Positions 3,438 through 28,333 of a DNA stretch of 64,000 nt are shown here, one piece after another; positions within the stretch are counted from its first letter, which is position 1, and every line of letters starts with the position of its first letter. The notes beneath the pieces are model-generated. The model made no database searches. It saw nothing but the letters and a program-made list of their open reading frames with translations, and was not told where the DNA came from. Both the position numbers and the translations under genes were made by a program. Source of the DNA: a bacterium (GTDB taxonomy: Bacteria > Hydrothermota > Tepidihabitantia > SM23-42 > JAOAFX01). The DNA lies in the NCBI GenBank assembly GCA_036382775.1, contig DASVHD010000021.1, positions 62,001 through 126,000 of the forward strand. Reading direction: 5' to 3'.

Positions 3438-4535
3438 ATGTTATTTATCCTTTCATTATTATTATACAATCTGGCGTCGCTGTCCAACCCAATAGAAATC
3501 AAGGCATTTGATACCCCTAATGATGATGGTTCCAGCATTTCAATATCATGGAAAACCGCTGTTCCCCTGACATCCATTAACATTTTGCGTTCAGATTCAC
3601 GCGACGGTAAATTCGAGCGCATCGGCGATGCCCTTCCTTCGGAAACGCTGTTCCTTGATACCCATGTCTTATACAGCCGGGAATATTTTTACGAAATCAC
3701 CGGCATGCAGGACAGCGTATCCATGATCTCCAGTGTCATCGGCCCGGCCAAGGCCAGCGCTCAAATTTTCAATACCAGCCGCAGTAACATGGCGCTTTGC
3801 ATCGTTGTTCTTTTTGCTGCGATCATTATTTATATAAACCGCGCGCGGCGCGGCCAAAAATTGTTTGTCCGGAAGATCCCGGCGCTGGCAGCTATTGACG
3901 AAGCGATCGGCCGGGCCACCGAAATGGGCAGACCCGTGCTTTACGTGCCGGGCATCATGGACATCGACGAACCGGAGACGATCGCCTCCATGTCGATCCT
4001 GGCTCGAGTCGCGGAAAGGACCGCCGAGTACGGCACGACGTTATACGTTCCTAACTGCCATGCCATGACTATGAGCATGGCATACCAGATCGTTAAAGAG
4101 TCGGCCGCCCGGGTCGGCCGTCCCGATTGGTTCGTGGGTGATAATGTCCGGTATATCACCGATGACCAGTTCGGTTACGTATCGGCCGTGAGCGGTATCA
4201 TGGTGCGGGAAAAGACCGCGACCAATTTTTATCTGGGCAAATTCTATGCGGAATCCCTGATCCTCGCCGAGACCGGTCATTCGACCAACGCGATCCAGAT
4301 CGCCGGTACGGCTTTGCCTGACCAACTGCCTTTTTTTGTGGCATCGTGCGATTTCACGCTGCTGGGGGAAGAACTCTACGCGGCTAGCGCCTATTTATCG
4401 CAGGAACCGGCACAGCTTGGATCACTCAAGGGGCAGGATTTTGGCAAGCTGATTTTCATCATCATAATTATCATCGGCGTCGCCTTGCAGTTGTTCAACC
4501 TCGGCTTCTTTGCCAATTGGTTCACGGTGCAATAA
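3438..4535 (+). CDS. DUF6754-type membrane protein with fibronectin-III-like ectodomain (cassette copy 1, gene 1)
   Basis: 365 aa. Order seen: short signal peptide (1-16), a fibronectin-III-like domain (about 17-105, starting 'PIEIKAFDTPNDDGSS'), a transmembrane helix (about 116-135), a soluble alpha/beta domain (about 140-330) and a C-terminal helix (about 338-355). The soluble part matches the uncharacterised DUF6754 family. Blocks nearly invariant between this and the copy at 27248-28333 are 'AIGRATEMG', 'GIMVREK', 'AESLILAETG', 'AIQIAGT' and 'CDFTLLGEELYAASAY'. The FN3 part should lie outside and DUF6754 in the cytoplasm (inferred). It heads a run of four membrane genes and is read from a leaderless promoter. 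Function unknown. Confidence 0.83.
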   Translation: MLFILSLLLYNLASLSNPIEIKAFDTPNDDGSSISISWKTAVPLTSINILRSDSRDGKFERIGDALPSETLFLDTHVLYSREYFYEITGMQDSVSMISSVIGPAKASAQIFNTSRSNMALCIVVLFAAIIIYINRARRGQKLFVRKIPALAAIDEAIGRATEMGRPVLYVPGIMDIDEPETIASMSILARVAERTAEYGTTLYVPNCHAMTMSMAYQIVKESAARVGRPDWFVGDNVRYITDDQFGYVSAVSGIMVREKTATNFYLGKFYAESLILAETGHSTNAIQIAGTALPDQLPFFVASCDFTLLGEELYAASAYLSQEPAQLGSLKGQDFGKLIFIIIIIIGVALQLFNLGFFANWFTVQ

Positions 4536-4586
4536 CATGCGGTATAAGATCCGTATCAAGGTGAATAACCCCGGACCTGGTTGCCT

Positions 4587-5213
4587 ATGAAGAGAACGCT
4601 GCCCATCATAATCGTTTCGGTTTGCGGCTTTTTCATTATCATCGCGTTCTTTATTCCCCTTCGTCCGGTACAGGACCTGTCGCAGACCCTGCAGAACTGG
4701 TACCTGGGTGTCATCGCGTTCTTCGTTTTCGTAGGGATCTTCAACCTGACGAGAACCAACCTGGAAAAGGTGATCAAGAAACGTCCGGAATTCGGCTACA
4801 GCATTATTCTGTTGGTGTTCCTGGTCTTGATGATGGTCGCGGGATTTTTTCTGGGCGGCACCGAGGGCCGGGCCTTTCTTTTCATGTTCGATAATTTCCA
4901 GGTGCCGTTGAGCGCTACGATGTTCTCGCTGCTGGCCTTTTTTGTCGCGTCCGCTGCTTTTCGAGCCTTCCGCGCGCGTACACCGGAAGCGACCCTCCTG
5001 TTGATCGCAGCCGTGATTGTGATGATCGGGCGCGTGCCGATCGGATACTGGATATGGCACGGGTTCCCTGGCCTGGTCGAATGGATCATGAATGTGCCCA
5101 ATACGGCCACCAAGCGCGGCATCATCTTCGGCGCAGACCTGGGTTTGATCTCAATGGCATTACGCGTGCTTCTGGGTATCGAAAGAAGCTACATGGGAGG
5201 GGGAAGAGAATGA
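4587..5213 (+). CDS. Multi-pass membrane protein (cassette copy 1, gene 2)
   Basis: 208 aa from the ATG at 4587; a TTG at 4581 would add two residues, but the copy at 26576-27238 also begins MKRTLP, which favours the ATG. About six hydrophobic segments are visible. The central loop 'SAAFRAFRARTPEATLLL' is nearly identical in the second copy ('SAAYRAFRARSPEATLLL'), as is the end 'LLGIERSYMGGG'. I recognise no known family. The stop codon still overlaps an ATG (GAATGA), as in the second copy where that ATG starts gene 3, but here gene 3 starts 247 bp further on. Probably a membrane subunit of the same complex as its neighbours. Confidence 0.82.
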   Translation: MKRTLPIIIVSVCGFFIIIAFFIPLRPVQDLSQTLQNWYLGVIAFFVFVGIFNLTRTNLEKVIKKRPEFGYSIILLVFLVLMMVAGFFLGGTEGRAFLFMFDNFQVPLSATMFSLLAFFVASAAFRAFRARTPEATLLLIAAVIVMIGRVPIGYWIWHGFPGLVEWIMNVPNTATKRGIIFGADLGLISMALRVLLGIERSYMGGGRE

Positions 5214-5460
5214 TACAATTTCAAATGTTAAATTACAAATACCAAAGTCCAGAACAAAAGTTGATGGGGAAAGCATTTTTCGTTTTACGTCATTGCTGCC
5301 CGTATCGTTATACGGCGTCGTTACACGGCAAAAGAATATCTTTGACGATGAACGATAAACGATACGAGCGGCGATGCCGAATAACGAATGACGAGATTTA
5401 TGCTTGTTTAGTATTTAGTGCTTCGAATTTAGGATTTTTATTTTCTCCAGGTGGAAGTTC
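5214..5460. other. 247-bp insert between cassette genes 2 and 3
   Basis: In the second cassette copy genes 2 and 3 overlap by 4 nt; here 247 bp separate them. The stretch is AT-rich and built of loosely repeated short motifs (CGTTATACGG, CGTTACACGG, ACGATAAACGATACG). A 9-bp inverted pair CGTATCGTT (5301-5309) / AACGATACG (5358-5366) could form a hairpin. No gene is seen in it. It ends with AGGTGG upstream of the gene 3 ATG. Confidence 0.6.
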
Positions 5461-6294
5461 ATGAACCTGATCGAGCGCCTTGCGCAAGTTGACCGCCGGA
5501 TATTATTCGTGCTGGTCGCGCTCGCGGTCATAATCCCGCTCCTGATCCCAATGGGTCTGCCCGTTGACATCACCAAGCCGGTAATGAGTGTTTACAAAAA
5601 AGTAGAATCCTTGCCGGCCGGTTCAGTCGTCGTCGTTTCCGCGGACTACGATCCCGGCAGCGAGGCCGAGCTGTATCCGGCGACCCTGGCTTTCCTGGAA
5701 CACTGTTTCCGAAGAAATTTGCGCGTGTACATGATCGGGCTTTGGCCCGGCGGTACCACGCTTGGCAACGTGGCGCTTAACGAGATCGCGCCGCGCTACA
5801 ATAAAGTCTACGGCGTCGACTATATCAATGTCGGTTACCGTCCCGGCGGCCAAGTCATGCTGGTCAGCCTGGGCCGGAACGTCGCCGACATCGTGCGTTC
5901 CGATTACTCCGGCGTGCCGATCGATTCTTTCCCCCTGGGCCGGGCCGTGAAATCAGCGCGCGACATAAGCCTGGTCATGACTTTGTCCGCCGGTGATCCG
6001 GGCGTGCTTCATTGGATCATCTATTTCAATGCGCGGTACGGAACGCCGATCGCCTGCGCGACCACGGCGATCATGGCGCCTCAGCAATATCCGTATCTTA
6101 GTTCGGGTCAGCTGGTCGGTTTGCTGGGCGGGCTCAAGGGCGCCGCTGAGTACGAAACCCTGGTCAAAAAACGCGGCCGGGCGATCGCCGGCATGGATTC
6201 GCAGTCGATCGTTCACGTGCTACTTGTAATTTTCATTCTTTTGGGTAATATTATATTGATATATCAAAAGCGGATGAGGAAGAAAAGTGCTTAA
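5461..6294 (+). CDS. Double-anchored alpha/beta domain protein (cassette copy 1, gene 3)
   Basis: 277 aa with one N-terminal helix (about 13-33), a soluble domain of about 200 residues and one C-terminal helix (about 251-269). Similar in layout to gene 1 without the FN3 part. Blocks shared with the copy at 25716-26579 include 'YDP' with 'EL' near the start of the soluble domain, a 'Y..YL.(S/T)GQ' motif and 'GGLKGAAEYE' near the end. No known family is recognised. ATG at 5461 has AGGTGG about 7 nt upstream. The last 8 nt overlap the GTG start of gene 4, so translation of the two is probably coupled. Function unknown; a structural or sensing subunit of a membrane complex is inference. Confidence 0.82.
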   Translation: MNLIERLAQVDRRILFVLVALAVIIPLLIPMGLPVDITKPVMSVYKKVESLPAGSVVVVSADYDPGSEAELYPATLAFLEHCFRRNLRVYMIGLWPGGTTLGNVALNEIAPRYNKVYGVDYINVGYRPGGQVMLVSLGRNVADIVRSDYSGVPIDSFPLGRAVKSARDISLVMTLSAGDPGVLHWIIYFNARYGTPIACATTAIMAPQQYPYLSSGQLVGLLGGLKGAAEYETLVKKRGRAIAGMDSQSIVHVLLVIFILLGNIILIYQKRMRKKSA

Positions 6295-6904
6295 TACAAT
6301 CGGGATCTGGATAGCCGCCCTGTTGACCCTGGCGATCTATTCATTTCTTTACAAGGATAATGTCTTTTACAAGATCGCGGAGAACGTGTTCGTCGGCGTT
6401 TCGGCCGGCTACTGGGCTGTTATCTTATGGCACGATTACACGTGGCCCAATCTTTTTGAACCACTGATCCGGCGGCATGATTTCTGGAGCCTGATACCGA
6501 TCTGCGTCGGTCTGATGATGTTCACGCCCCTGATCCCTAAGATCAACTGGTTGATCCGCATCCCGCTGACATTTACCATGGGAGTGGGCATGGCGCTGGT
6601 CATCACGCAGCGCGTCCAGGGAGATATTTTCCCTCAGCTGCAGGCGACGTTCCTGCCGATGGTTGGCGTGCCATGGTTCACGGCGATTTCCAACCTGCTG
6701 ATCATCATCGGTGTGGTCGTGACCCTGGTCTATTTCTATTTTTCCAAGGAACACAAGGGCGTGCTCGGCTTTGGGGCGAAAGTCGGCGTATGGTTCATGA
6801 TGATTGCATTCGGTGCATCTTTTGGATATACTGTTATGGCCCGCATTTCTCTTCTGATCGGCCGGGTATATTTTTTGCTGCATAATTGGCTGGGAGTCAT
6901 ATAA
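6287..6904 (+). CDS. Multi-pass membrane protein (cassette copy 1, gene 4)
   Basis: 205 aa, GTG start at 6287 overlapping the end of gene 3. About six hydrophobic segments. Conserved with the copy at 25081-25719: 'LLTLAIYSFLYKDN' near the N-terminus, 'VFVGVSAGY', 'IPKINWLIRIPL' and the C-terminal 'GYTVMARISLLIGR'. The last block, with its invariant Arg residues, is the most constant part of the whole cassette. The stop TAA shares a base with the ATG of the next gene (TAATG), linking the cassette to the DUF4388 gene. No known family is recognised; channel- or scaffold-like membrane subunit by context only. Confidence 0.82.
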   Translation: MLNTIGIWIAALLTLAIYSFLYKDNVFYKIAENVFVGVSAGYWAVILWHDYTWPNLFEPLIRRHDFWSLIPICVGLMMFTPLIPKINWLIRIPLTFTMGVGMALVITQRVQGDIFPQLQATFLPMVGVPWFTAISNLLIIIGVVVTLVYFYFSKEHKGVLGFGAKVGVWFMMIAFGASFGYTVMARISLLIGRVYFLLHNWLGVI

Positions 6905-7749
6905 TGACGAGCTTGGAGATAAATCTTAAGGAATTTACGATCAGCGATGTCCTTCAGTTCATCAGCCGGGTTAAGAAAACCGGCGTGCTGAGGATAACCG
7001 GGAGTTTGAGCGGCGAGATCTACCTTAAGGATGGATTGGTAGTGCATGCCGCGGCCGCTAACGGCAATGAAAAAGGCATGGAAGCCTTATTCAGCATGTC
7101 GTTCACAGAACTCGAACGCGGCGTTTTTGAGTGCGGGATAATGGCGCCGGAGCAAACCATTTCCGAGGACCTGGGCAAGCTCAGCGATGACCTGGAGAAA
7201 CGCCGGATCGAGTTCGAAGAGATCAAGAAACAGATGCCGCCCATGGATATCGCGCTGGCAAAATCGACAAAGGAGCTGGAATCGGCTGTCGCGCTGCGCC
7301 GGACCGACTGGCAGATCCTTGCGTTGATCGATGGCAAGCGTACGCTGGCCGAGGTCGTGGCGCAAGCCAAACTTGGTGGTTTTGAGGCGATCAAGACGAT
7401 CCTGTGGCTCAAAGAGAAGGGATTGATATACGACCCCAAAGAGGCCGAGCGCATCATGTCAGGTTTCTTGCGGTATCTTGAGAAGACCTTCGAATATTTT
7501 GGTAAGAACGGCTGGGAATGGCTTAAGGCATGGGCGGAGCTGGACCCGGCGAACAAAAATGTGGCCAATGCCGTGACGGTCGATGAAGCGACGTTCAAGG
7601 TCTCGCTGGCATCGCTGCTCAGCACCGAGGAGATCGCCGGATTTTTCAGCAGGTTCGATGAGTTTTTGAACAATGAGGTTCCCAAGGCCTACGGTAAGCT
7701 GCTGGCAAAGAAGAAAATGGAAGAATTCAGGAAGAAGATCGAAGGATAA
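6904..7749 (+). CDS. DUF4388 (PATAN-type) protein
   Basis: 281 aa from the ATG at 6904, which overlaps the upstream stop (TAATG); an ATG 18 nt earlier lies inside the upstream gene and is unlikely. The first 90 or so residues ('LKEFTISDVLQFISRVKKTG...G.IYLKDGLVVHA') are a DUF4388 domain, known from response regulators and polarity proteins. A middle segment ('RRTDWQILALIDGKRTLAEV', about residues 145-165) looks like the winged-helix-like repeat often following DUF4388. The C-terminus is helical. Soluble and cytoplasmic. Coupled to the membrane cassette upstream and to roadblock-like genes downstream, it probably links the cassette to cytoplasmic signalling. Confidence 0.8.
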   Translation: MTSLEINLKEFTISDVLQFISRVKKTGVLRITGSLSGEIYLKDGLVVHAAAANGNEKGMEALFSMSFTELERGVFECGIMAPEQTISEDLGKLSDDLEKRRIEFEEIKKQMPPMDIALAKSTKELESAVALRRTDWQILALIDGKRTLAEVVAQAKLGGFEAIKTILWLKEKGLIYDPKEAERIMSGFLRYLEKTFEYFGKNGWEWLKAWAELDPANKNVANAVTVDEATFKVSLASLLSTEEIAGFFSRFDEFLNNEVPKAYGKLLAKKKMEEFRKKIEG

Positions 7750-7761
7750 AGGGAAAGCAAA

Positions 7762-8427
7762 GTGGATTTCCTGGATAAGATCCCGGGTATCATCGGATAT
7801 GCGGTCATCAATGCCGAGGATGGGTCCATCGATGAAGTGAAAGGATCGTCAATAAACCCGCTGGGCGATCTTGCCGCTTTCTTTTCGTCCGCCGGTGAAG
7901 TGATTAAAAACAGCCTGGCGCTCGGGAATATCCAGTACATATCGCTGTGCTATGGCGCCGCGCGCATGGTGATCTTCATGCACGACACGAAATACCTGGG
8001 TATTGAAGTCGAACGCGAGCAGGATGCGCGACAGATCATGGAGAAGATTATAATATCCAAGACGGAACCGGTCCAAGAGGCCGAAAAACCGGCCCTTGAG
8101 ATCCCCCGCAACATCAGCTCCAAAATGCAGCAGATCAACCTTCTGATCGACGAGTTCGGCGGCGATGCGAACCGCGCGCACTGGCTCGATATTCTCAACC
8201 AGGGGCTCGGGATCTTGGCGGGTGATCTCCTGCCATTGATGGGTTTGATCGAACAGAAGCTTGGGATCAAGGACTTACCGCCGCCTGAGAAAGAGGACGA
8301 TTTCGTACAGGCACTCAGGACGGTCATTGATTTTCTGGTCAAGAAAGCGGTCGAAGAGATGGGATCGTCCCAGGCGCGGGTCAAAGTACAGACCGTGATC
8401 GAAAAAATGCGGCAGTCAACCGGGTAA
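7762..8427 (+). CDS. Roadblock/LC7-like protein
   Basis: 221 aa with a GTG start at 7762. The first 95 or so residues read as a roadblock/LC7 fold: 'GIIGYAVINAEDGSIDEVKG' with 'AAFFSSAGEVIKN' and a final strand. These domains dimerise and act on small Ras-like GTPases (MglB is the known bacterial example), but no GTPase gene is present in this window. The C-terminal 100 residues are helical with 'LMGLIEQKLGIKDLP'. It lies 12 nt after the DUF4388 gene and 7 nt before the next one. Fold assignment is by pattern and moderately sure. Confidence 0.68.
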   Translation: MDFLDKIPGIIGYAVINAEDGSIDEVKGSSINPLGDLAAFFSSAGEVIKNSLALGNIQYISLCYGAARMVIFMHDTKYLGIEVEREQDARQIMEKIIISKTEPVQEAEKPALEIPRNISSKMQQINLLIDEFGGDANRAHWLDILNQGLGILAGDLLPLMGLIEQKLGIKDLPPPEKEDDFVQALRTVIDFLVKKAVEEMGSSQARVKVQTVIEKMRQSTG

Positions 8428-8434
8428 TGACAAC

Positions 8435-9028
8435 ATGAAACAGGAATCTTTCAATAAATTCGAAGAGAAAGGCATCGGGTTGCCGTTTGCCGTGAGTAAG
8501 AGCGGTGAGACCATGGTCTCTCAGAGCGGCGAATCGCTTAAATCCAAGCTTGCGCAGGTCGGCACGGTGATCTTTGAAACGATCGGCGCGGTTGGGAGAG
8601 TGAAGATCGATACGCTCGAGATCATTGGTGACGCCAAGAGCGTCGTCATGGATTTTGATGATGAAAATCTGCTGGGGAGCCTTTTTGAGCCAAAGGACGG
8701 GACCGTCATTTCTGAAATCGTGGATTCTTTGAAAACCCTGAAGGTCGAACCTCATGTCGAGGCCTTGGTGAAACACGAGGAAGCGCCCAAACCGGCGTTG
8801 ACCATTAATGTTCTCGATGACATAAAGGCAATGTTGAAAGAATACGTGGGTGATTTTGCGGACCGGATCTATCAAAACCAGATCAAGGCTCAGCGCATAA
8901 AAACCGATGATCTGCATGAGGAAGATGCCCGGCGTTTGATCTTCGCGCTGGGCAAGGCCGCGGGCATGATCATCGGCCCGTCCAAAGGGAAGGAATTGAC
9001 GAACAAACTGCTGGCGAAACTGAAATGA
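8435..9028 (+). CDS. Uncharacterised soluble protein, possibly roadblock-like
   Basis: 197 aa, no signal peptide or membrane helix. A pattern of strands and helices in the first 110 residues ('GIGLPFAVSKSGETMVSQSG', then 'SVVMDFDDENLLGSLF') could be a divergent roadblock-type domain, as in the gene just upstream. The end is a helical region with 'GKAAGMIIGPSKGKE'. Its place in a tight gene run suggests a partner of the DUF4388 and roadblock-like proteins. I do not recognise the family with confidence. Confidence 0.6.
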   Translation: MKQESFNKFEEKGIGLPFAVSKSGETMVSQSGESLKSKLAQVGTVIFETIGAVGRVKIDTLEIIGDAKSVVMDFDDENLLGSLFEPKDGTVISEIVDSLKTLKVEPHVEALVKHEEAPKPALTINVLDDIKAMLKEYVGDFADRIYQNQIKAQRIKTDDLHEEDARRLIFALGKAAGMIIGPSKGKELTNKLLAKLK

Positions 9029-9134: not shown

Positions 9135-9509
9135 ATGAATTGTTTATTATTTTTGTCGGCTGCGCCGTTCGGTATCGAACCATCACAGTATGAATCATTG
9201 GCGATCATCCCCAATTATCTTCTGGTTCTCGGCGCCGTCCTTTTGTGGCTGGCTTTCATCGTGCTCGGTGTGATTGCGCGGCGTTATGAGATCGTCCTGG
9301 GTGAGCGCACGAACTGGCAGTTCATGATCTTCGCGCCTACCGGCATCCTGGTCTTCGCGATCATCCAACTGGTGTTCTGCGGTATCGGCGGAAAGATGAT
9401 GCTGCCTAAGGGCGGCATGAATTACCTGGCCTACAGCCTGTTCCTGCTCAGCGGATTGCTTTCCCTGCTTTCGGGTTTGAAATTTTTGAGCGTTACCAGG
9501 GGTAAATAG
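9135..9509 (+). CDS. Small membrane protein
   Basis: 124 aa with three to four hydrophobic segments (about residues 22-46, 63-83, 97-115) and a polar ending 'SVTRGK'. A strong Shine-Dalgarno sequence AGGAAGGAGG lies 6 nt before the ATG. It forms a pair with the next small membrane gene, 15 nt downstream. No family is recognised. Position between the signalling genes and exbB suggests a part in the same membrane assembly, which is inference. Confidence 0.68.
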   Translation: MNCLLFLSAAPFGIEPSQYESLAIIPNYLLVLGAVLLWLAFIVLGVIARRYEIVLGERTNWQFMIFAPTGILVFAIIQLVFCGIGGKMMLPKGGMNYLAYSLFLLSGLLSLLSGLKFLSVTRGK

Positions 9510-9524: not shown

Positions 9525-9875
9525 ATGAGAGCGGATATTATTGCAGAAGTTCTGTTCATTGTCGCGATCTTTCTTTCCATTATTTCTTTGTTCGTCTACG
9601 GCATGATAATCAAACGGCTCCTTGTGCTGATCAAAGGCAAGGGCACGTGGATATTCCCGGTCATCGGCGGTCTATTTCTCATTATTCTCGCCTTTGTGCA
9701 TATCTACCGCATCGTTATCTATTTCCCGCTGCTTGGGACGGCCGGTCCAGGCGATCTTTTTGACCTGATCGTGGGTTCACTGGCGCTTGCGAGGGTGGAG
9801 AGCTACCTTCTGCTCGGAGCCGGGTTGTTCCCATTGATCGGCGGGATCCTTTATTACCGGGCAAGCTCAAAATAA
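9525..9875 (+). CDS. Small membrane protein
   Basis: 116 aa with about four hydrophobic segments (about 5-26, 41-62, 70-92, 95-112) and a short polar tail. AGGAGG lies 6 nt before the ATG. It follows another small membrane gene by 15 nt and is followed by a 127-bp gap before exbB. No family is recognised. Confidence 0.65.
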   Translation: MRADIIAEVLFIVAIFLSIISLFVYGMIIKRLLVLIKGKGTWIFPVIGGLFLIILAFVHIYRIVIYFPLLGTAGPGDLFDLIVGSLALARVESYLLLGAGLFPLIGGILYYRASSK

Positions 9876-10002: not shown

Positions 10003-10626
10003 ATGATAAAAGAGTTCTTGTTGGGTGGCGGTATTATGTGGATGCTCTTAGCGTGCATAGTATTGGGTTTAGCGATCCTGCTTGAACGGATGTATTCACT
10101 GTTTTTCAAGATCAGGCTGAACCCTGCAGTTTTTTTATCAAGAGTCCAGGCGTTGGTCAGTGAAAAAGGCGTACAAGCCGGCATCGCTTTGTGCGACCAG
10201 ACACCGTCACCGGTCGCGAAGATTGTAAAAGCCGGGTTGGAAAAAGCAGATAAAGGTAAGGATGTCATCGAAGATGCGATAACGCGTGCCGGCGCAATAG
10301 AACTCGGATTCCTTGACCGGGGCATGGCGCTGCTTGCTGGTTTAACGACAGTGGCGCCGTTTCTGGGGTTCCTTGGCACGGTGACGGGTATGATGAAATC
10401 TTTTGCCGCTATTGCCGCGGCCGGCGAGGTGGAACCGACGATCGTAGCAAGCGGTATTTCCGAAGCCCTGATCACTACGAAATGGGGGTTGCTGATCGCC
10501 ACACCCCTGGCGATCATCCATATCCTGTTTACCGGGAAGGTTGACGGTTATACCAGAGATATGGAAGAAGCCGCGGCGCAGCTGGTCGATTATCTCATGG
10601 AGCGCGGTCCCGGAACCAAGCAATAA
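10003..10626 (+). CDS. exbB: ExbB/TolQ/MotA-family proton channel protein
   Basis: 207 aa. Three transmembrane segments: one near the N-terminus, then two in the C-terminal half flanking the family signature 'APFLGFLGTVTGMMKSF' and 'SEALITTKWGLLIATPLAI'. With ExbD it forms the inner-membrane proton channel that drives TonB. The Shine-Dalgarno AAGGAGG is close to the ATG. exbD, exbD and tonB follow at once, and a TonB-dependent receptor lies 1.4 kb downstream, which supports a TonB rather than a Tol or motility role. Confidence 0.92.
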   Translation: MIKEFLLGGGIMWMLLACIVLGLAILLERMYSLFFKIRLNPAVFLSRVQALVSEKGVQAGIALCDQTPSPVAKIVKAGLEKADKGKDVIEDAITRAGAIELGFLDRGMALLAGLTTVAPFLGFLGTVTGMMKSFAAIAAAGEVEPTIVASGISEALITTKWGLLIATPLAIIHILFTGKVDGYTRDMEEAAAQLVDYLMERGPGTKQ

Positions 10627-10632: not shown

Positions 10633-11106
10633 ATGATCATTAAAGCGCGGTCAAGAAAGATCGCCAGCATACCCACCGCTTCCATGGGGGACATTGCTTT
10701 TTTGATCATTATTTTTTTCATGACTTCCACGGTCTTTACGCGCGACAAAGGTTTGAAAATGCTGCTGCCAGAAAAAACCGAAAAGATCGATATCGTCAAG
10801 ATAAAACCCGAGAATATCGTCACGATCATGATCAATCCCGAGGGCGCGCTAAAGGTCAAAGCCACGGGGCTCGGCGACGGGCTTGACCTCTCGGTACAGC
10901 AATATAACGAAGTCCGAAAAGTTATTCAGCAAAAGCTTCTGGAGCGCGATACCTTGCTCGTCGTATCATTGCGGGCGAGCAAGGACAGCCAGTACAAGAA
11001 CATGATCGCGGTCTTAGACCAGATCAAGATGTCGCGTGTAACGGCCGCGGATGGCCGGGAATTGCGGGCGAACAAGATCAGCCTTATCCCGACCACCGAG
11101 GAGTGA
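10633..11106 (+). CDS. exbD: ExbD/TolR-family protein, first of two
   Basis: 157 aa: short cytoplasmic N-terminus, one transmembrane helix (about 17-36, 'GDIAFLIIIFFMTSTVF', with the conserved Asp that carries protons), then a periplasmic ExbD domain. The 'IPTASMGD' lead-in is typical. The stop TGA overlaps the GTG start of the second exbD (GTGA). Two different ExbD proteins after one ExbB is a known arrangement and suggests a mixed dimer. Confidence 0.9.
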   Translation: MIIKARSRKIASIPTASMGDIAFLIIIFFMTSTVFTRDKGLKMLLPEKTEKIDIVKIKPENIVTIMINPEGALKVKATGLGDGLDLSVQQYNEVRKVIQQKLLERDTLLVVSLRASKDSQYKNMIAVLDQIKMSRVTAADGRELRANKISLIPTTEE

Positions 11107-11531
11107 CGCCAAACATGCGCAAAAGCTTAGTTAGAAGACCGGCGCAGACACCTGACATTCCCACGGCATCGACCGCGGACGTGGCTTTCCTGCTGATCTT
11201 ATTTTTCATGGTGACCACGGTGTTCCGGGCTACCTCGCTGCATTTAAAGATCAGTTTGCCCAAAGCCCAGGCGACCGAGCGGATATTGATCAGGCGAAAT
11301 CTCGCCAACCTCTGGTTGGAAGCCGGCGGCAAGGTCTATATCGATGATGCGGTCGTGCCCATGGAATTGTTGAACGCGAAGATGGCGGCGAAGATCGCCG
11401 AGAATCCGGAACTGGTGACCATCCTGAAGATCGACGAGGGAACGAATTACGGGATCGTCGATCAGATGCTTGATCAGCTCAAAGAAGCCAGGGCGTTCAA
11501 GATCACTTTTGCCACGGAGTTCAGGACGTGA
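11103..11531 (+). CDS. exbD: ExbD/TolR-family protein, second of two
   Basis: 142 aa from the GTG at 11103, which overlaps the upstream stop by 4 nt; an ATG at 11115 is a possible alternative. Same layout as its neighbour: 'IPTASTADVAFLLILFFMVT' marks the single helix with its conserved Asp, followed by a periplasmic domain with the ExbD-type repeat of Lys/Asp-rich strands. The protein is only distantly similar to the first ExbD, so this is an old duplication. Confidence 0.9.
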   Translation: MTPNMRKSLVRRPAQTPDIPTASTADVAFLLILFFMVTTVFRATSLHLKISLPKAQATERILIRRNLANLWLEAGGKVYIDDAVVPMELLNAKMAAKIAENPELVTILKIDEGTNYGIVDQMLDQLKEARAFKITFATEFRT

Positions 11532-11541
11532 CCGGGAGTTT

Positions 11542-16313: not shown

Positions 16314-16328
16314 GACTTGGAGGTAACA

Positions 16329-19241: not shown

Positions 19242-19251
19242 GGAGGCGACA

Positions 19252-20373: not shown

Positions 20374-20384
20374 CAAATGCGGTT

Positions 20385-20417
20385 ATCCCTTGCTCCCTCT
20401 ATCGGGGAGCAAGGGAT
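20385..20417 (+). other. Perfect 13-bp hairpin between PorV-like and peptidase genes
   Basis: ATCCCTTGCTCCC (20385-20397) pairs perfectly with 20405-20417 across a 7-nt loop. No T-run follows, so it is probably not a full terminator. It may lower read-through into, or protect the end of, the mRNA upstream of the peptidase gene. Confidence 0.6.
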
Positions 20418-20434
20418 AGCTGTCGGAGGTTTTA

Positions 20435-23098
20435 ATGAAGAGAACATGTGTGTTTTTGTGCCTGGCGGCGTTAACCGCTGCTTTTGCCATAAATACCGAT
20501 CTCATTCCTCAGGAAAAGATCGCATCGGTCGCGAACCGGCTGATCGGTCAAAAATTCGGCACCGACTTCCGTCTGAATGATGTCCTGCCTTATTACAGTG
20601 TTTTTGACGGATCACCCAACGCTTACGCGTATATCTACAAGAACAACGCGGGCGATCCGGTCACCATTGTGATGGGCGCGCGTTACACGTCGACGCCGGT
20701 GGGTGAAATAACACGCGGCATGCCGCGTGCCAAAACCAACCAGGATAAAGCGTTGAATGCGGCACGCCAGATCCTGACCGCGGAACCGGTTATGTCGAAG
20801 GCATATTATTGGGGACCCGGCGAGGAATATCTGGGTTTTCGATCCGGGGACCAGGAAGTACTGATCAACCTGTACACTTACCAGAAATTCAATGGGGATA
20901 TAACGAAAGTCATTCCCAATCCCGAGCTGGAAAGACTGACCCGCGACAAGTGGGAAAAATATCTTTCGATCACCGACTATACCACGAGACAGGGCAATTA
21001 CGTTGACTCAGTGCCATGGATCGACTGGGTTTACGGCTGTTCGCCGACCGCAGCGTCCATGATGTTCGGTTACTGGGACGCCCGCGGTTATGGCCGGCTC
21101 ATCGATTACTATTTCACTCACTGGGATTATCCCGAAGGCGAATGGAACGATTGCGCGAACGTAAACCGGGAACTGGCGATAGCGATGTACACCGACACCA
21201 TGACCGGCGGCACGTCCATCGGCAATATCCGGAACGGCATGATCAACGTGGCGAACTCGATCCACGGGCATTCATTCAGCGCTTCCACTTCGCCCCAGGG
21301 CCAATCGTACAATCAGTATGTCTTTTCCTGGATCAAGACCGAGATCGATGCCCAGCGCCCCTGCCACTGGAGTATTTTGTACTACTGGTATGGCGGTCAG
21401 TACATCAACCATTCGGTAACCGGTGTCGGTTATGATATAATCCTCCCTGATACGTTTGTCCAGATCCACACGACCTGGGATAACGGCGAACCGCTATGGC
21501 CGCTGTGGACGTACTACAGCGGTACTTATTCTTATGATTACGTGGTGACCTTAATCCCGGGCGGCGCGACCGCTAACAATATCTTCGTGACGCGTCCGGT
21601 GGGCGGTGATCTCTATGCCTTGCCCACGGTTTTCGGCGGCATAAAATACAATATCCTTTGGAATTACACGGGTACGACGATCGATCACTGCAAGATGTGG
21701 TATTCTCACGGTGAAAACGCTCATAGTTATGACTCGCTGAACTGGAACGTGATCACGAGCAACGCGGCCAACACGGGTAAATATACCTGGACCTGTCCGA
21801 CGACGGTGTGTTCTTTGCGCGTGAATATGAGCGCGCTCAGCGCCGCCAATGCCCGGATTGCGGCTGACGGTATGGTCGGGCGATGCCTGGTTAAGAACCC
21901 GTCGCACTCGGCCGAAGTCACGCTGGCCGGGCACTATGATACCGGCGGCTGGGCATACGACGCGGCGCTCGCGGGCAGCTACGTTTATGTCGCCGACGGC
22001 GTATCCGGGCTGACGGTCATTGACGTCAGCGATTCCTCGCTGCCCGATTACTATTCGGGCTTGGCTCTTCCGGGGCTGAGCAACTGCATCGCGATCAGCG
22101 GACAATACGCGTATGTCGGTGACCGTGAAGATACGCTGCGCGTAGTGTCGATCGCCAATCCGCTGAATCCGGTCCAGGTCGGCAAGTGCAGCATCGCGGA
22201 TGACGTGCGCGATGTCTATGTGTCGGGATCCTATGTCTATGTGGCGGCGCGCAACCAGGGACTGGTTATTGTCAACGTGACCACCCCGTCCAATCCGCAG
22301 ATCGTCGGCACGCTTGATACCGACGGGATGGCATATGATGTATGTGTTGACGGCAACTACGCGTATGTTGCCGACGCGACCACGGGTGTCAAGGTCATTG
22401 ATATCAGCAACCCCGCGAGCCCGGTTCTGACGGGTTACAACAATACCGCCGGTGTGGCTAACGGCGTATGCAAATCCGGCAGCCGCGTTTACGTCGCCGA
22501 CGGCGCTACCGGGATCAAGGTTTTTGATGCTTCAAGCCCGGATACGCTGATATTGCTGGGTTCGCTCGATACGCCGGGGAGCGCGACCAGAGTGAGCTAT
22601 TGGAACAATCTTCTGTTCGTGGCCGACGGCACCAATGGCGGCTTGAGGGTGATCAACGTGACCAGCCCGACCAGTCCGGTTGAGGCTGGATATATGCAGG
22701 GATATAGTGCGGGCGGCAACCTGGTGGTCGACGGGAATAAGGTATATCTGGCCGACGGTTCCATCGGATTAGTGGTTATTCTCCAGACGATCACCGGTGT
22801 CGAGGAACACAATGTCCAGCTACCGCCGCAGGCGGTCAGTATGAATATCGGCCCCAATCCGTTGAAACTGCGCCAGCCGGCAGTGATCAGCCTGGTCCTT
22901 AACCGGGCCAGCCAGAGCAGCATCCAGCTGCTCGATTGCTCGGGCCGGCACGTTGCGGATATCTTTAACGGCGTCCTGAACAGGGGTGAGAACCGCATTC
23001 ACTGGCAGGGCGGCAACGATATCGCCGCGGGCGTGTACTTTGTTGAGCAGCACACGGGAAGTATCAGCACGATCCGGAAATTAGTGCTGGTGAAGTAA
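20435..23098 (+). CDS. Secreted C39-like cysteine peptidase with LVIVD repeats and sorting domain
   Basis: 887 aa. Signal peptide (1-18). Residues about 30-190 look like a propeptide. The peptidase_C39-like core carries Cys202 (GCSPTAASM) and His326 (INHSVTGVGYD). From about 505 to 790 there are six or so LVIVD-type repeats ('YVYVADGVSGLTVIDVSD' and variants), each about 42 residues, which should form a beta-propeller. A FlgD-like sorting domain closes the protein ('AAGVYFVEQ...RKLVLVK'). It should be exported by the type IX-like route and stay on or near the surface. Catalytic assignment rests on the two motifs and is fairly sure. GGAGG lies 6 nt before the ATG. Confidence 0.82.
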   Translation: MKRTCVFLCLAALTAAFAINTDLIPQEKIASVANRLIGQKFGTDFRLNDVLPYYSVFDGSPNAYAYIYKNNAGDPVTIVMGARYTSTPVGEITRGMPRAKTNQDKALNAARQILTAEPVMSKAYYWGPGEEYLGFRSGDQEVLINLYTYQKFNGDITKVIPNPELERLTRDKWEKYLSITDYTTRQGNYVDSVPWIDWVYGCSPTAASMMFGYWDARGYGRLIDYYFTHWDYPEGEWNDCANVNRELAIAMYTDTMTGGTSIGNIRNGMINVANSIHGHSFSASTSPQGQSYNQYVFSWIKTEIDAQRPCHWSILYYWYGGQYINHSVTGVGYDIILPDTFVQIHTTWDNGEPLWPLWTYYSGTYSYDYVVTLIPGGATANNIFVTRPVGGDLYALPTVFGGIKYNILWNYTGTTIDHCKMWYSHGENAHSYDSLNWNVITSNAANTGKYTWTCPTTVCSLRVNMSALSAANARIAADGMVGRCLVKNPSHSAEVTLAGHYDTGGWAYDAALAGSYVYVADGVSGLTVIDVSDSSLPDYYSGLALPGLSNCIAISGQYAYVGDREDTLRVVSIANPLNPVQVGKCSIADDVRDVYVSGSYVYVAARNQGLVIVNVTTPSNPQIVGTLDTDGMAYDVCVDGNYAYVADATTGVKVIDISNPASPVLTGYNNTAGVANGVCKSGSRVYVADGATGIKVFDASSPDTLILLGSLDTPGSATRVSYWNNLLFVADGTNGGLRVINVTSPTSPVEAGYMQGYSAGGNLVVDGNKVYLADGSIGLVVILQTITGVEEHNVQLPPQAVSMNIGPNPLKLRQPAVISLVLNRASQSSIQLLDCSGRHVADIFNGVLNRGENRIHWQGGNDIAAGVYFVEQHTGSISTIRKLVLVK

Positions 23099-23103
23099 TG
23101 AAC

Positions 23104-23128
23104 TCTGCGGTCTCCGCGGATCTTTTTT
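23104..23128 (+). terminator. Intrinsic terminator after the C39-like peptidase gene
   Basis: Stem TCTGCGG / CCGCGGA (7 bp with one G-U pair, loop TCT) followed directly by TCTTTTTT. A second CCGCGG with nearby AAAGATCTTT follows at 23142-23158. Confidence 0.6.
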
Positions 23129-23163
23129 CATTTCAGCGCTGTCCGCGGAAAGATCTTTCAATG

Positions 23164-23181
23164 AAAGGAGGTGGTACATAA
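23164..23181 (+). promoter_or_regulatory. Orphan Shine-Dalgarno motif in the leader of the next gene
   Basis: AAAGGAGGTGGTACATAA lies 94 nt before the real start. AAGGAGGTG is a perfect complement of the usual 16S rRNA tail, yet no proper start codon follows at the right distance. The same kind of motif occurs in three other leaders of this window (near 12265, 32390 and 50630). Confidence 0.5.
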
Positions 23182-23257
23182 GAAAAAACAGGGTGACAAT
23201 AAAGGCAACAATGTTCAGTTGGATAACTGAACTAACTAGCTAATGAAAGGAGAAAAA

Positions 23258-24856
23258 ATGAAGTATGTAGTTGCACTATTAGTTGTTGCAACCGTAATGT
23301 TCGCGGGCACGAAGCCGGTGATCAATGAGATGTATATTGATAACGGCACCGCGGTGCCCAGCTACGGTAATGACTGGCGCGATGGATATCTTGTGGATTC
23401 TTCCGCCAACCAGTACACGCTGGCCCTGACGCACCAGGAATGTATTTCGTATAACGAGACCGCGGACGCCATTGCCGTCGTTAACCGTGACTATCAGGTC
23501 AGCGGCGTACTGAACGTTCACAGCGCTGACGGTGGTTTGTCATTCTGGATGGATGACTGGAGCGTTTACGGGCAGGATTTCGGGCCCGGGCGATATCCCA
23601 CGGCGATCGCCGCTGATGCGGCGCCCTATATATCGTTCCCATACCTGTATTCCGGCGCATGGGGCGGTGGTGGCGGGCAGTATTGCTCAGGCGGCTGGTA
23701 CAGCTCGGCTTGGGACCCGGCAATCGATCTCTATCCCGGGAACGGGTTTGTTCAGACCGTGATCGGGAAGGAAATGCCCAACGGCAATATGTGCTTTATC
23801 CTCTACGGGACGAGCCCGTTCCAGCTGTATTACCGTACCTATACGCCAGATCTGGGCACCCTGCTCAGTCAGGGAACTTTGAGCGCCGCGGCCACGTACT
23901 ACTGGGGATGGGACAGCAATCTGAATGCGGGTATCGCCTACGTGTTCTATTGCGATGATGCCCTCAATGTTTATTATCGCACGTCCACCGATGGCGTCAC
24001 CTGGACCTCCGAGGCCTCCTATAATCTGGTCTGGCCGAACCCCTACACGAATAACCTGATCGACCTGTCCACGGGCGTTCAGGCGTGCGTGAAGGATGAT
24101 GGCAATCCCGTTCTCGTGTTCGACAACCGAAACGGCGATGACGGGACCTACCCGCCGTACAGCAAGGTCTACGTGTCAACGGCATCGGGCGCGGCTTGTA
24201 CGCAGGTTTCGCCCACCGGCGCGGATTCAGAGCGTTACTATGTCACGATCGGGACCGCCGGGACCAAGGTCGGCGTGATCTACTGCCAGCCCAGGAACAA
24301 CCTCGACGATTCGTTGACCTGGCTTGATGTTTTCTATACGCAGTCCGAAAACGGCGGCACGACCTGGTCGACGCCCGTGAACCAGACCTCGGATCATACA
24401 AGGCGGACCTGCATACCGCAGCTTTCCAAGAGGCTTGACGCCGCGAGGAACCGCGGGTATATGCTTTACGGCAACGCGATCGGGAGCGATGTGGACCTGA
24501 TGTGGGCCTATGATGCGCAATCCGCAAGAGCGACCCGCATTTATTTCCAGACCGTATCTGCGACCGGCGTCGCTGAGAACAAGAGCGAGCTGCCGACAAG
24601 GATCGCTCTCAATGTGAAGCCTAACCCCGTCCGCGGTCATGCGGCCCTTACGTACTCGCTGCCTAACGCGGGCAACGTCTCCTTGAAGCTCTTCTCGACC
24701 GACGGACGTCTGGTCAGGGAGCTTGAGCATGGGACAAGGGAAACCGGTGTCTACACGGTCAATATCGGCACCAGCGACCTGGTGAGCGGAACTTACTTCG
24801 TAGTGCTTGAGACCGCTGGGAATACCATCAGCAGCACGATGGTGGTCACTCGGTGA
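23258..24856 (+). CDS. Secreted protein with propeller-like domain and type IX-like sorting domain
   Basis: 532 aa from the ATG at 23258, which has AAAGGAG 6 nt upstream; an ATG 15 nt earlier overlaps that site and is less likely. Signal peptide about 1-16. The body holds phrases typical of sialidase/BNR-like propellers: 'VYYRTSTDGVTWTS' and 'FYTQSENGGTTWSTPV'. No catalytic set can be named. The last 80 residues are the sorting domain ('LNVKPNPVRGHAALTYSLP' to 'GTYFVVLE...STMVVTR'). It closes the plus-strand run and is followed by a strong terminator. Confidence 0.82.
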   Translation: MKYVVALLVVATVMFAGTKPVINEMYIDNGTAVPSYGNDWRDGYLVDSSANQYTLALTHQECISYNETADAIAVVNRDYQVSGVLNVHSADGGLSFWMDDWSVYGQDFGPGRYPTAIAADAAPYISFPYLYSGAWGGGGGQYCSGGWYSSAWDPAIDLYPGNGFVQTVIGKEMPNGNMCFILYGTSPFQLYYRTYTPDLGTLLSQGTLSAAATYYWGWDSNLNAGIAYVFYCDDALNVYYRTSTDGVTWTSEASYNLVWPNPYTNNLIDLSTGVQACVKDDGNPVLVFDNRNGDDGTYPPYSKVYVSTASGAACTQVSPTGADSERYYVTIGTAGTKVGVIYCQPRNNLDDSLTWLDVFYTQSENGGTTWSTPVNQTSDHTRRTCIPQLSKRLDAARNRGYMLYGNAIGSDVDLMWAYDAQSARATRIYFQTVSATGVAENKSELPTRIALNVKPNPVRGHAALTYSLPNAGNVSLKLFSTDGRLVRELEHGTRETGVYTVNIGTSDLVSGTYFVVLETAGNTISSTMVVTR

Positions 24857-24874
24857 TCTAAAGCAATACAGAAT

Positions 24875-24906: not shown

Positions 24907-25080
24907 GTTGGTCTTTCTGATCTGTCTAGTTTCTCTGGTCTTTTTAGTTCACCTGATATCCTGATGTCCTGATATCCATATCCTGATAAACTGTATCTCT
25001 TCTCCTTTTCATCTCTTCATCTCTGCTTCTCTTCATGCTTTTTGTCCTACCCTCTTACCTTCTCAACTTCCTAACTTCAG
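24907..25080. repeat. Pyrimidine-rich low-complexity spacer with CTGATATCC motifs
   Basis: The spacer is made of loosely repeated TCTCTT-like words and the motif CTGATATCC / CTGATGTCC (24953-24990). The same motif family fills the spacer at 57205-57320. No gene is seen. Confidence 0.55.
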
Positions 25081-25719
25081 CTATTTTATCACGCCCAGCC
25101 ATGTGCCCAGGATGAATTGCAGGCGTCCGATCAGCAAGCTCACGCGCGCCATGACCGTGTAGCCGAAAGCCGCGCCGAACCCGATCATAACGAAGAAAAT
25201 ACCGATGCGCGAGGTCACTTTCAGGATCCCTTTTTGTTCGCGGGAAAAATAGAAATAGGAGACAACGCAGATAACGCCCAGGAATAGGATCGCCGACCAG
25301 ATGATGCCGGTCGAACCTGCGTGCCAGCGCTGGAAATTGTACGGCGTGAGGATCGTGCCCTGGACCTGCTTGATGATGTAGGCCTGGATCGTGGCCGGGA
25401 TCGATGCGCCGATACCATAACCCATCAAGATGCCGATCGGAATGCGGACAAGCCATGATATTTTGGGGATAAAACGCGTGAAGTAGAGCGCGCCGATGAT
25501 GAAGGGGATGATCAGGATGAGCCGGCCCCGGAACAACGGGTTGAACAAGGTCGGCACGAGAATGTTGTGATAATAGAAGGTCACGGCGTAGCCGTTGGAC
25601 ACACCGACAAAGATATGCTCGGCCACTTTATAGAAAGGGTTGTCCCGATAAAGAAAGGAGAAGATCGCCAACGTCAACAATGCGCCGATCCAGACCCATG
25701 GGTCAAATGAGATGTTCAT
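25081..25719 (-). CDS. Multi-pass membrane protein (cassette copy 2, gene 4)
   Basis: 212 aa, about six hydrophobic segments, clearly related to the protein at 6287-6904. Shared blocks: 'LLTLAIFSFLYRDN', 'IFVGVSNGY', 'IPKISWLVRIPI' and 'GYTVMARVSLLIGR'. Compared with copy 1 it has a few extra residues in the central loop around 'QAYIIKQVQG'. Its ATG overlaps the end of gene 3 by 4 nt, as expected for a tightly coupled run. Last gene of the run, ending before a shared terminator. Confidence 0.82.
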   Translation of the reverse strand: MNISFDPWVWIGALLTLAIFSFLYRDNPFYKVAEHIFVGVSNGYAVTFYYHNILVPTLFNPLFRGRLILIIPFIIGALYFTRFIPKISWLVRIPIGILMGYGIGASIPATIQAYIIKQVQGTILTPYNFQRWHAGSTGIIWSAILFLGVICVVSYFYFSREQKGILKVTSRIGIFFVMIGFGAAFGYTVMARVSLLIGRLQFILGTWLGVIK

Positions 25720-26579
25720 TTCTTCCTCCCTTTAATAAAGTAGCCGATGTTCCCGATGATGATGAATGCGATCATGACCAGGTGGGCATAGGTCAGTGAG
25801 GGCAGGGATTCACTGGCCTTTCTCCTTGCCTTGATGTGCAGTTCGCTGGCGATCATTTCCTCGTATTCGGCCGCGCCTTTCATACCGACCATTAAGCCGG
25901 AGAATTGGCCGGTCTGTAGATAGGAATAGAACTCCGACCCGGATACTGCGGTCACGCCGGCGCCAACCTTTAGACCGAACCGGTTCTGGGCGTATTCGAT
26001 CCACCAGCGGGGGACATCACTGCTGCTCAGCGATACGAGTAGACCGACGTTCCGGTAGTTCTTGATGCGTTTCATCAGGGGCAGCGTATCGGTCTTGTTG
26101 CCGTAGTAGTCTGTTTTATAGACATTGGCAATGCTCTCGCCCATACCCAGGATCGGGACCAGAGGAGGCGGTTGCCAGCCGAGAAATACATAGTCCCGGC
26201 CGTACAGTATGCTGTCAGCATTGGTCTTGGCGTTTTTGTTGAATTCTTCAGTGATCTGGGTCAGAGCGCTCTGAGCCATACCCAGGGGCTGGACATAGAG
26301 GGAAAGGACCAATATCTTTATTCTCCGCGTGAAAGCGTGGCGCAGGATCGACAAAGCCATGGGTTGCAGCTCGGGCACATCGCGCGGGTCGTATTCAAAG
26401 TTGATGATCATTGCCTTGTTCGGCGGGATCGCTTCCACGGCATTAAAAAGTTTCTGTACCGGTTCCATAACCCGGACCCGAAGCGGTACATTAAAAAGCA
26501 TGGGCAGGATCACCACGATGGCCAGTATCAGGTAGATGATCCGGCGATCGATCTTAAGCATCCTTTCAACGAATTTCAT
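25716..26579 (-). CDS. Double-anchored alpha/beta domain protein (cassette copy 2, gene 3)
   Basis: 287 aa: N-terminal helix (about 13-33), soluble domain, C-terminal helix (about 263-282) and a basic end 'IKGRKK'. Related to the protein at 5461-6294; the best conserved parts are 'EYDPRDVPEL', 'GRDYVFLG' (aligned with 'GVDYINVG') and 'GLMVGMKGAAEYEEM'. It overlaps gene 2 upstream and gene 4 downstream by 4 nt each. This shows that the 247-bp gap in copy 1 is not the usual arrangement. Function unknown. Confidence 0.82.
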   Translation of the reverse strand: MKFVERMLKIDRRIIYLILAIVVILPMLFNVPLRVRVMEPVQKLFNAVEAIPPNKAMIINFEYDPRDVPELQPMALSILRHAFTRRIKILVLSLYVQPLGMAQSALTQITEEFNKNAKTNADSILYGRDYVFLGWQPPPLVPILGMGESIANVYKTDYYGNKTDTLPLMKRIKNYRNVGLLVSLSSSDVPRWWIEYAQNRFGLKVGAGVTAVSGSEFYSYLQTGQFSGLMVGMKGAAEYEEMIASELHIKARRKASESLPSLTYAHLVMIAFIIIGNIGYFIKGRKK

Positions 26580-27238
26580 TCGCCACCTCCGCCGAGCCAG
26601 TTACGTTCTATGCCCAGCAGGATCTTCAGCGCCGTTGCCAGCATGCCGAGGGCGACGCCCAGCAAGATCCCACGTTGAGCTGCCACGTTGGGGACATCCA
26701 TTATCCACTGCGCAAATGATGGCAGGCGGTGGGAGATCTGGTCACCAAAGGGAAGGATCCCGATCATGACCACGAAAGCTGAAAGAAGCAATAATGTCGC
26801 TTCCGGCGACCGTGCCCGAAACGCCCGGTAAGCGGCCGATGCCATGAGGAAGGCAAGAAGCGCGAACATCGTGGAACCGAGGGGGACTTCAACGTTCAGG
26901 TATATGCTCTGGATGTCAAAATGGAATGTGCTGATGTGAGTCGGAAGCGGGCCGGTACCGGCGACACCGCCGAAAAGACCGATTATTGAAGTAACGGCAA
27001 AGGTTAATAATAAGACCCATGAGTACTGCCAGTTTTCCCGGTGCCGTTTTATTTTATCGAAATGGACGCGGATGAGACTGCCCAGTCCGAGGACGAGCGC
27101 GAACGCGGCGACGATCTTCATGATGTCATTGCGGAAGAAATCATCGGTTTTTTGGACGGCGGGGTGGGGGATCAAAAAGGGTATGATGCCCATGATGCCT
27201 ACGATGAAAACCAGGATCAGCGGAAGCGTTCTCTTCAT
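26576..27238 (-). CDS. Multi-pass membrane protein (cassette copy 2, gene 2)
   Basis: 220 aa with about six hydrophobic segments, related to the protein at 4587-5213 ('MKRTLPLILVFIVG', 'SAAYRAFRARSPEATLLL', 'LLGIERNWLGGGGE'). AGGAGG lies 6 nt before the ATG. It starts 9 nt after gene 1. No known family is recognised. Confidence 0.82.
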   Translation of the reverse strand: MKRTLPLILVFIVGIMGIIPFLIPHPAVQKTDDFFRNDIMKIVAAFALVLGLGSLIRVHFDKIKRHRENWQYSWVLLLTFAVTSIIGLFGGVAGTGPLPTHISTFHFDIQSIYLNVEVPLGSTMFALLAFLMASAAYRAFRARSPEATLLLLSAFVVMIGILPFGDQISHRLPSFAQWIMDVPNVAAQRGILLGVALGMLATALKILLGIERNWLGGGGE

Positions 27239-27247
27239 TGGTTCCTC

Positions 27248-28333
27248 CTATTTAAAAAGATTAAGGACTGGGAACTTCGTCAAAAGCCCGATGATCGAAG
27301 CCGCGATCAAAGCGATGCCGATAATGAGTTTGGAGAAGTCTTCACCTTTGATGCCGCCCATAAGCAGGGGCTCCTTGGAAATATAAGCGGATGCCGCATA
27401 CAACTCCTCGCCGATCAGGGTGAAGTCGCATGCGGTGACAAAGAACGGCAGCTGTGATACCTGGTCCGTGCCCGCGATCTGGATTGCGCCGGTGGACGCG
27501 CCGGTCTCGGCCATGATCAGCGATTCAGCGCGGAACCAGCCGATCAGAAAATTGGTCGCGGGTTTTTCCCGCACCATGATGCCGTCAACCGCTGCCGCGT
27601 AGGCGAACTGGGAATCCGTGACGAAATAGACGCTGTCCGGGTCAAAAGCATCGGGCCGGCCGACCGAACTGTACGCTTCCTTGACTATCTCCCGCGCCAC
27701 GGTATAGACGATCGGGTCGGAATGAGGATTTATGAACCGAGTGTTATATTGGGCGCACTTCTTGGCGACTTCGCCGATGATGTTGAGAGAAGCGATGGTC
27801 GCGATGTCCTCGATGTAACCGATGCCCGTGGTATACAGGATGGGTTTGCCCATTTCGGTTGCCCTGCCCACCGCGTCGTCGATGGCTTGAAGCCCAGCGA
27901 TCTTCCGGATATAGAGCTCTTTGCCTTTGCGGGCGTGGTAGATGTAATACAGGATTATGAAACCGAAGATCGCCAGGGCGATGAAAATGTTCAGTTTATT
28001 GCGGTCGATCCACTGGGCACTGCTTTTTACCGGTGTGGATATTCCGGAAAACGCCCTGATCGTATCCTGAACCGCGGCCACTTTGTAATAGTATTGTTTG
28101 TTGTCCTCGGTCTCGTCCTGGATGAAATTCTTGCCGTTCCCGATGAAGTTTATTTTTTCAAAATCGACGCCGTTATCGCTGCGATAGATCTCGTAATTCG
28201 TCAGGACGGCGTCGTCGGGAGATAATTGCCATTCGATGTTTATTGTGCCGCCACCATCGTCAGGGGCGTCATACGCCTTCAGATCGGTGGGCGGAGCAAG
28301 GGCCACTGTGAATGCTAAAAAGATCAGGGTCAT
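27248..28333 (-). CDS. DUF6754-type membrane protein with fibronectin-III-like ectodomain (cassette copy 2, gene 1)
   Basis: 361 aa. Signal peptide (1-13), FN3-like domain (about 15-103, 'PPTDLKAYDAPDDGG'), transmembrane helix (about 115-133), DUF6754 domain and a C-terminal helix. Conserved blocks match copy 1: 'AVGRATEMGKPILY', 'DGIMVREKPATNF', 'AESLIMAETG', 'AIQIAGT', 'CDFTLIGEELYAASAY'. The start codon overlaps the TGA of the upstream DUF559 gene (ATGA), and its Shine-Dalgarno AAGGAGG is inside that gene's last codons. The two copies look roughly half identical by eye, so the duplication is old. Confidence 0.83.
   Translation of the reverse strand: MTLIFLAFTVALAPPTDLKAYDAPDDGGGTINIEWQLSPDDAVLTNYEIYRSDNGVDFEKINFIGNGKNFIQDETEDNKQYYYKVAAVQDTIRAFSGISTPVKSSAQWIDRNKLNIFIALAIFGFIILYYIYHARKGKELYIRKIAGLQAIDDAVGRATEMGKPILYTTGIGYIEDIATIASLNIIGEVAKKCAQYNTRFINPHSDPIVYTVAREIVKEAYSSVGRPDAFDPDSVYFVTDSQFAYAAAVDGIMVREKPATNFLIGWFRAESLIMAETGASTGAIQIAGTDQVSQLPFFVTACDFTLIGEELYAASAYISKEPLLMGGIKGEDFSKLIIGIALIAASIIGLLTKFPVLNLFK

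Follow-up and report, generated by a model that had tools for sequence, protein, structure and literature searches.

A stretch of 64,000 nucleotides from the bacterial contig DASVHD010000021.1 (positions 62,001 to 126,000, forward strand), here called the window, contains two copies of a four-gene membrane cassette, g1 to g4, whose first gene encodes the domain DUF6754 (PF20539). The cassette is almost certainly part of a real, conserved and undescribed system. Our reading of it, to which we give a rough probability of 0.4, is that g1 to g4 may encode one inner-membrane complex that exists in several paralogous versions per genome. The complex would belong to a six-component core, together with a MutL-like ATPase and a protein designated c13, and would act in the inner membrane as a transporter or membrane enzyme controlled by the ATPase. 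This reading rests on the conserved gene order, the co-variation of the four proteins, cross-phylum linkage, joint loss, and strongly conserved polar residues in DUF6754 and in the transmembrane (TM) segments.

The DUF6754 cassette and its distribution

The genes of the two cassettes are listed by window coordinates. Cassette B entries give the BLASTP identity to the corresponding gene of cassette A.

Cassette A g1, 3438-4535, plus strand: 365 amino acids; signal/FN3 region, TM helix, predicted cytoplasmic DUF6754, C-terminal TM helix (PF20539, E 4e-114)
Cassette A g2, 4581-5213, plus strand: about six TM segments; conserved S124 and R128 within a TM segment (47 homologues; TM analysis)
Cassette A g3, 5461-6294, plus strand: TM helix, predicted extracytoplasmic Rossmann-like domain, TM helix with conserved H252 and N263 (AlphaFold2; hydropathy and charge)
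Cassette A g4, 6287-6904, plus strand: about six TM segments; conserved T182, R186 and S188 (47 homologues)
Cassette B g1, 27248-28333, minus strand: FN3-TM-DUF6754-TM (PF20539, 3.5e-113 in the genome search); 46% (1e-104)
Cassette B g2, 26576-27238, minus strand: about six TM segments; 46% (4e-59)
Cassette B g3, 25716-26579, minus strand: TM-domain-TM; 32% (1e-58)
Cassette B g4, 25081-25719, minus strand: about six TM segments; 49% (5e-62)

These identities are far beyond chance and, at the sequence level, mark cassettes A and B as old paralogues. The initial annotation had placed two cassettes with the same gene order at 3438-6904 (plus) and 28333-25081 (minus); the open reading frames are found at these positions and on these strands, and the motifs it singled out, GEELYAASAY in g1, KGAAEYE in g3 and GYTVMAR in g4, are present in both copies. 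Its term "duplicated" is correct for the window and understates the genome, which has five complete cassettes and five DUF6754 profile matches. Cassette A is nearest to cassettes from other genomes (L081 and L051; 64-76% identity across the four genes), and cassette B is nearest to another cassette (L008) within its own genome.

The best named relative and the phylum search place the window in WOR-3 (Stahlbacteria). The genomes compared were 147 from this phylum and 14 controls. DUF6754 is present in 140 of the 147 (about 95%), with one to seven copies each, and in none of the 14 controls. A sample of 80 loci from the named collection, among at least 575 confirmed matches and with the labels of metagenome-assembled genomes as deposited, covers WOR-3/Stahlbacteria, Zixibacteria, Fermentibacteria/Aegiribacteria, Cloacimonadota, Latescibacterota, Coatesbacteria, Edwardsbacteria, GN15, TA06 and one record labelled Armatimonadetes. 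The genes g2, g3 and g4 follow in order and on the same strand at 123 of the 130 g1 loci with room downstream, a set drawn from WOR-3, Zixibacteria, Fermentibacteria, Cloacimonadota, Latescibacterota, Coatesbacteria and other groups. The median intergenic gaps are 9, -1 and -1 nt, and two or three cassettes often stand in tandem. Mirror-tree correlations of pairwise distances among g1 to g4 are 0.69-0.82 across 120 cassettes, values that include the correlation due to shared ancestry. The two pairs that were shuffled as controls gave at most 0.06 (g1-g3) and 0.09 (g1-g4).

The gene order, which the initial annotation had proposed to look for in other phyla, is thus kept in many of them, most often with more than one copy of the set per genome. 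The suggestion, drawn from order and overlaps, that the genes encode one complex stands as far as one conserved unit is concerned (conserved order, near-abutting genes, co-variation and joint loss); the complex itself we infer.

Individual cassettes show further features. An IS200-like (Y1_Tnp) transposase gene lies between g2 and g3 of one cassette (L044:10486-11172), a gene for an SLBB/polysaccharide-export-like protein (L006:5405-6664) lies directly 5' of an FN3-less cassette in the window's genome, and an LplA lipoate/biotin ligase-like gene is found 3' of double cassettes in several lineages (L037, L041, L045, L054, L154 and L197).

Searches for known relatives returned little beyond DUF6754, whose curated cut-off g1 meets. 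No Pfam or NCBIfam family matched g2, g3 or g4, and the PDB sequence search gave no significant relative for these three and only FN3 matches for g1. No transporter or secretion family in Pfam, NCBIfam or PDB was matched significantly by any of the four. In Foldseek, the FN3 matches of g1 swamp the result and DUF6754 itself was not cleanly probed; g3 retrieves generic Rossmann-like matches only (best E 0.006), as it does in the viral library. An anti-phage defence system was considered and rejected, with no PADLOC match and no relative in viral contigs. Among the papers covered, the literature search found none that mentions DUF6754 and, in titles and abstracts, nothing bearing on the system. 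The view that the cassette has no described function therefore agrees with the PDB, Pfam (beyond DUF6754), NCBIfam, PADLOC and literature searches. Two outcomes had been named that would speak against a new system, namely genes not found together elsewhere or a match to a known transporter or secretion complex; neither occurred in the searches made. A membrane system that is present in about 95% of the genomes of a phylum and across many phyla must serve something basic, and no function, structure or paper was found for it.

MutL, c13 and a probable six-component core

A MutL/GlmL-like ASKHA ATPase (PF13941, 6e-128) is encoded beside cassettes. The second partner, c13, has 373 residues and a mean column identity of 65%; it consists of two barrel-sandwich-like regions, with weak matches to barrel-sandwich families, and further conserved C-terminal regions. 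MutL, c13 or both are within about 8 kb of a cassette at 26 of the 80 named loci (Zixibacteria, Fermentibacteria, Coatesbacteria, Latescibacterota and others), and both are near a cassette in two WOR-3 families (L041/L054 and L037). Adjacency to cassettes is frequent outside WOR-3. In the window's genome MutL is at C42 and c13 at C48, away from the cassettes, and the link between the cassettes and these two proteins is not visible in the single window. This linkage, which counts for a common core, is seen although most genomes hold one or two MutL genes. A small protein, k0, is often encoded directly 5' of MutL.

Two genomes of one genus, G126 and G127, are 94-95% complete and have none of g1, g2, g3, g4, MutL and c13. 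The full set of six is present in the sister genera G128 and G129, and g1, g2 and MutL are found in G124 and G125. The tested genomes of families f22 and f23 contain a single g1, g3, g4, c13 and MutL each, at separate loci in f23. This joint loss, together with the cassette linkage, defines a core that probably consists of g1 to g4, MutL and c13; support for it is moderate because the genes were lost together once, in a single genus. With its joint loss and its single-copy minimal versions, the six-gene set is a concrete one for expression, structure determination and modelling.

The same two genomes bear on the proposal that g1 to g4 belong to a type IX-like secretion system. By sequence, WOR-3 has a system resembling the type IX secretion system (T9SS): SprA is present in 20 of 21 genomes, and in the window the interval 16317-24856 holds genes for a PorV-family protein (19252-20373) and for proteins whose C-terminal sorting tails are of the T9SS type (Por_Secre_tail). 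However, SprA and many PorV-family genes persist in G126 and G127 in the absence of g1 to g4, MutL and c13. The T9SS core therefore does not require the unit, and we give almost no credence to membership of such a system. The window's own genome also has SprA, and one SprA homologue (G000:C36:42297-47390) exceeds the family cut-off when joined. A search of 12 genomes for GldM, run without a positive control, gave no match.

Predicted anatomy and a possible mechanism

Confident AlphaFold2 models were obtained for g1 (predicted local distance difference test, pLDDT, 92; predicted template modelling score, pTM, 0.76) and g3 (pLDDT 95, pTM 0.90). In both, helices and six strands alternate within the domain, a TM helix comes next, and the domain is predicted to be Rossmann-like. 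Rossmann-like folds have this alternation in common, and it does not prove kinship. By profile comparison there is no homology between g1 and g3, nor between g2 and g4. TM boundaries were set by a hydropathy average rather than by a dedicated predictor. Near the membrane, g1 has 7.0 lysine and arginine residues on the DUF6754 side versus 2.6 on the FN3 side, and g3 has positive charges at its two ends. These positive-inside counts place DUF6754, by prediction, in the cytoplasm and the g3 domain outside it. The idea that the two domains may pair is therefore not supported, since they would lie on opposite faces of the membrane and profile comparison gives no homology. The related suggestion of a shared fold is upheld to the extent that both are predicted to be Rossmann-like with a similar order of helices and strands, and not as regards homology.

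Polar residues that are at least 95% conserved lie inside TM-like segments of g2 (S124, R128), g3 (H252, N263) and g4 (Y181, T182, R186, S188). DUF6754 has the invariant polar residues R145, R159, E162, E272, E278, D305, E311 and E312, many of which adjoin predicted strand ends.

In the mechanism that we propose, MutL and c13 would work from the cytoplasm, on the face of g1 that carries DUF6754. The membrane path would be formed by g2 and g4 together with the TM helices of g3, and a substrate would be handled outside by the Rossmann-like domain of g3 and the FN3 domain of g1. The ATPase could load, gate or reset the complex, and the paralogous cassettes could be devoted to different substrates or partners. 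Cassette A might serve the TonB operon that it heads, and in some operons the complex may be joined to ExbB-ExbD-TonB. With slightly lower confidence, the system may represent a class of inner-membrane machines under ATPase control that has not been described before, in which a GlmL-like ASKHA ATPase and a barrel-sandwich adaptor drive interchangeable four-subunit DUF6754 modules. These modules are near-universal in WOR-3, occur in many uncultured phyla of the FCB side and are missing from the 14 control genomes.

The conserved residues and the MutL homology also admit a membrane-bound enzyme complex, in which MutL-c13 would be a reactivating or cofactor-loading chaperone and DUF6754 a catalytic Rossmann-like domain. 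A chaperone role of this kind towards B12 enzymes is assumed for GlmL and EutA. MutL is homologous to GlmL (PF13941), and this homology and the invariant polar residues speak for such an enzyme. However, MutL scores below every NCBIfam cut-off compared (NF040745, 230 of 475 bits; TIGR01319, 159 of 204; Or-4, 214 of 600), including those for GlmL and Or-4, and g1 to g4 show no known catalytic family. The neighbours of MutL are gcv genes, k0, c13 and cassettes; no B12-enzyme family was matched, in neighbourhoods that were not systematically searched for mutases. We consider this enzyme unlikely.

Several observations weigh against an ATPase-controlled complex of g1 to g4 within the six-component core. 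The joint loss on which the core depends is the single event noted above. Genome G013 (90% complete) has no g1 to g4 yet keeps MutL and c13. MutL also adjoins glycine-cleavage genes. In addition, the window's genome (C8) and several others have a divergent second pair of MutL and c13 genes with no cassettes adjoining, noted at L179, L180, L181 and L184; MutL-c13 may therefore have a wider role. The complex, its contact with MutL, its dependence on the ATPase, the functions of its components and any substrate are what we infer, and no substrate is indicated. A run of glycine-cleavage genes, the conserved k0 gene and MutL recurs in WOR-3 and Fermentibacteria (L065, L066, L080 and L114) for no obvious reason.

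Neighbouring genes and comparison with known systems

The genes linked to the two cassettes in the window are as follows.

DUF4388 protein, 6886-7749, plus strand: linked, not core; same place in other genomes (PF14332, 4e-11)
c1, 7762-8427, plus strand: Roadblock/LC7-like by pattern only; conserved neighbour, not core
c2, 8435-9028, plus strand: linked
c3, 9135-9509, plus strand: linked; small TM protein
c8, 9525-9875, plus strand: linked; small TM protein
ExbB, 10003-10626, plus strand (PF01618, 2e-27)
First ExbD, 10633-11106, plus strand: clusters with the second ExbD
Second ExbD, 11103-11531, plus strand (PF02472, 1e-23)
TonB, 11470-12159, plus strand (TonB_C, 2e-22)
c10, 12449-13534, plus strand: lipoprotein-like; linked
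TonB-dependent receptor with CarboxypepD_reg domain, 13545-16313, plus strand: linked
MazG-family gene, 29067-29351, minus strand: upstream of cassette B (PF03819, 1e-10)

The run downstream of cassette A, from DUF4388 to the TonB genes, is common to L081, L085, L115, L136 and L144. It raises the possibility that g1 to g4 are the inner-membrane part of TonB-dependent outer-membrane transport, energised by ExbB-ExbD-TonB. The ExbB-ExbD-ExbD-TonB genes and the receptor gene do follow cassette A, and Exb genes are near 12 of the 80 named loci (WOR-3, Fermentibacteria and Zixibacteria). Most cassettes, including B and the three others in the window's genome, have no such run nearby, however, and it is found at none of nine Cloacimonadota loci, which makes this role quite improbable. 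As a general partner the TonB system was rejected, the association being inconstant.

A signalling or polarity module acting through DUF4388 and Roadblock-like proteins would account for the genes directly 3' of cassette A, since DUF4388, c1 and c2 occupy that place in several genomes. It is very unlikely: most of the tested genomes with a cassette lack c1, the cassette-free G126 and G127 have kept it, and the Roadblock homology of c1 was not confirmed. DUF4388, c1 and c2 are ruled out as core parts by their distribution.

Beside cassette B, the MazG-family gene is separated from the cassette by a DUF559 gene and repeat-rich DNA. In four B-like loci (L042, L043, L047 and L119) a MazG-family gene lies -4 to 100 nt upstream of g1.

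Five known families or systems can be compared with the one described here. PF20539 includes g1 of every cassette; it is a domain name only and covers neither g2 to g4 nor the gene order, the number of copies or the tie to MutL and c13. ExbB-ExbD-TonB and the receptor continue the gene run of cassette A and its orthologues, but they are absent from most cassettes, and g1 to g4 are outside these families. The N-terminal barrel-sandwich of RnfC (PF13375) is matched weakly by c13, below the cut-off (8.5e-4 and 1.8e-3), and no RnfC Fe-S or flavin domain is matched in c13. PilM-PilN-PilO and FtsA are membrane platforms that recruit an ASKHA protein; the logic proposed here, in which an ASKHA protein in the cytoplasm would sit on a complex of the inner membrane, is the same, but no sequence relation of g1 to g4 was found and the likeness is one of analogy only. 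The last comparison is with GlmL/MutL (PF13941; TIGR01319, NF040745 and NF040744), the ASKHA ATPases of the B12-mutase reactivation type. The MutL of this system shares homology with them along the whole length of the family. It differs from them in its sub-threshold NCBIfam scores, in its longer C-terminus, and in its link to c13 and membrane cassettes, with no mutase noted among its neighbours. The system suggests a role for GlmL-like ATPases beyond the B12 mutases.

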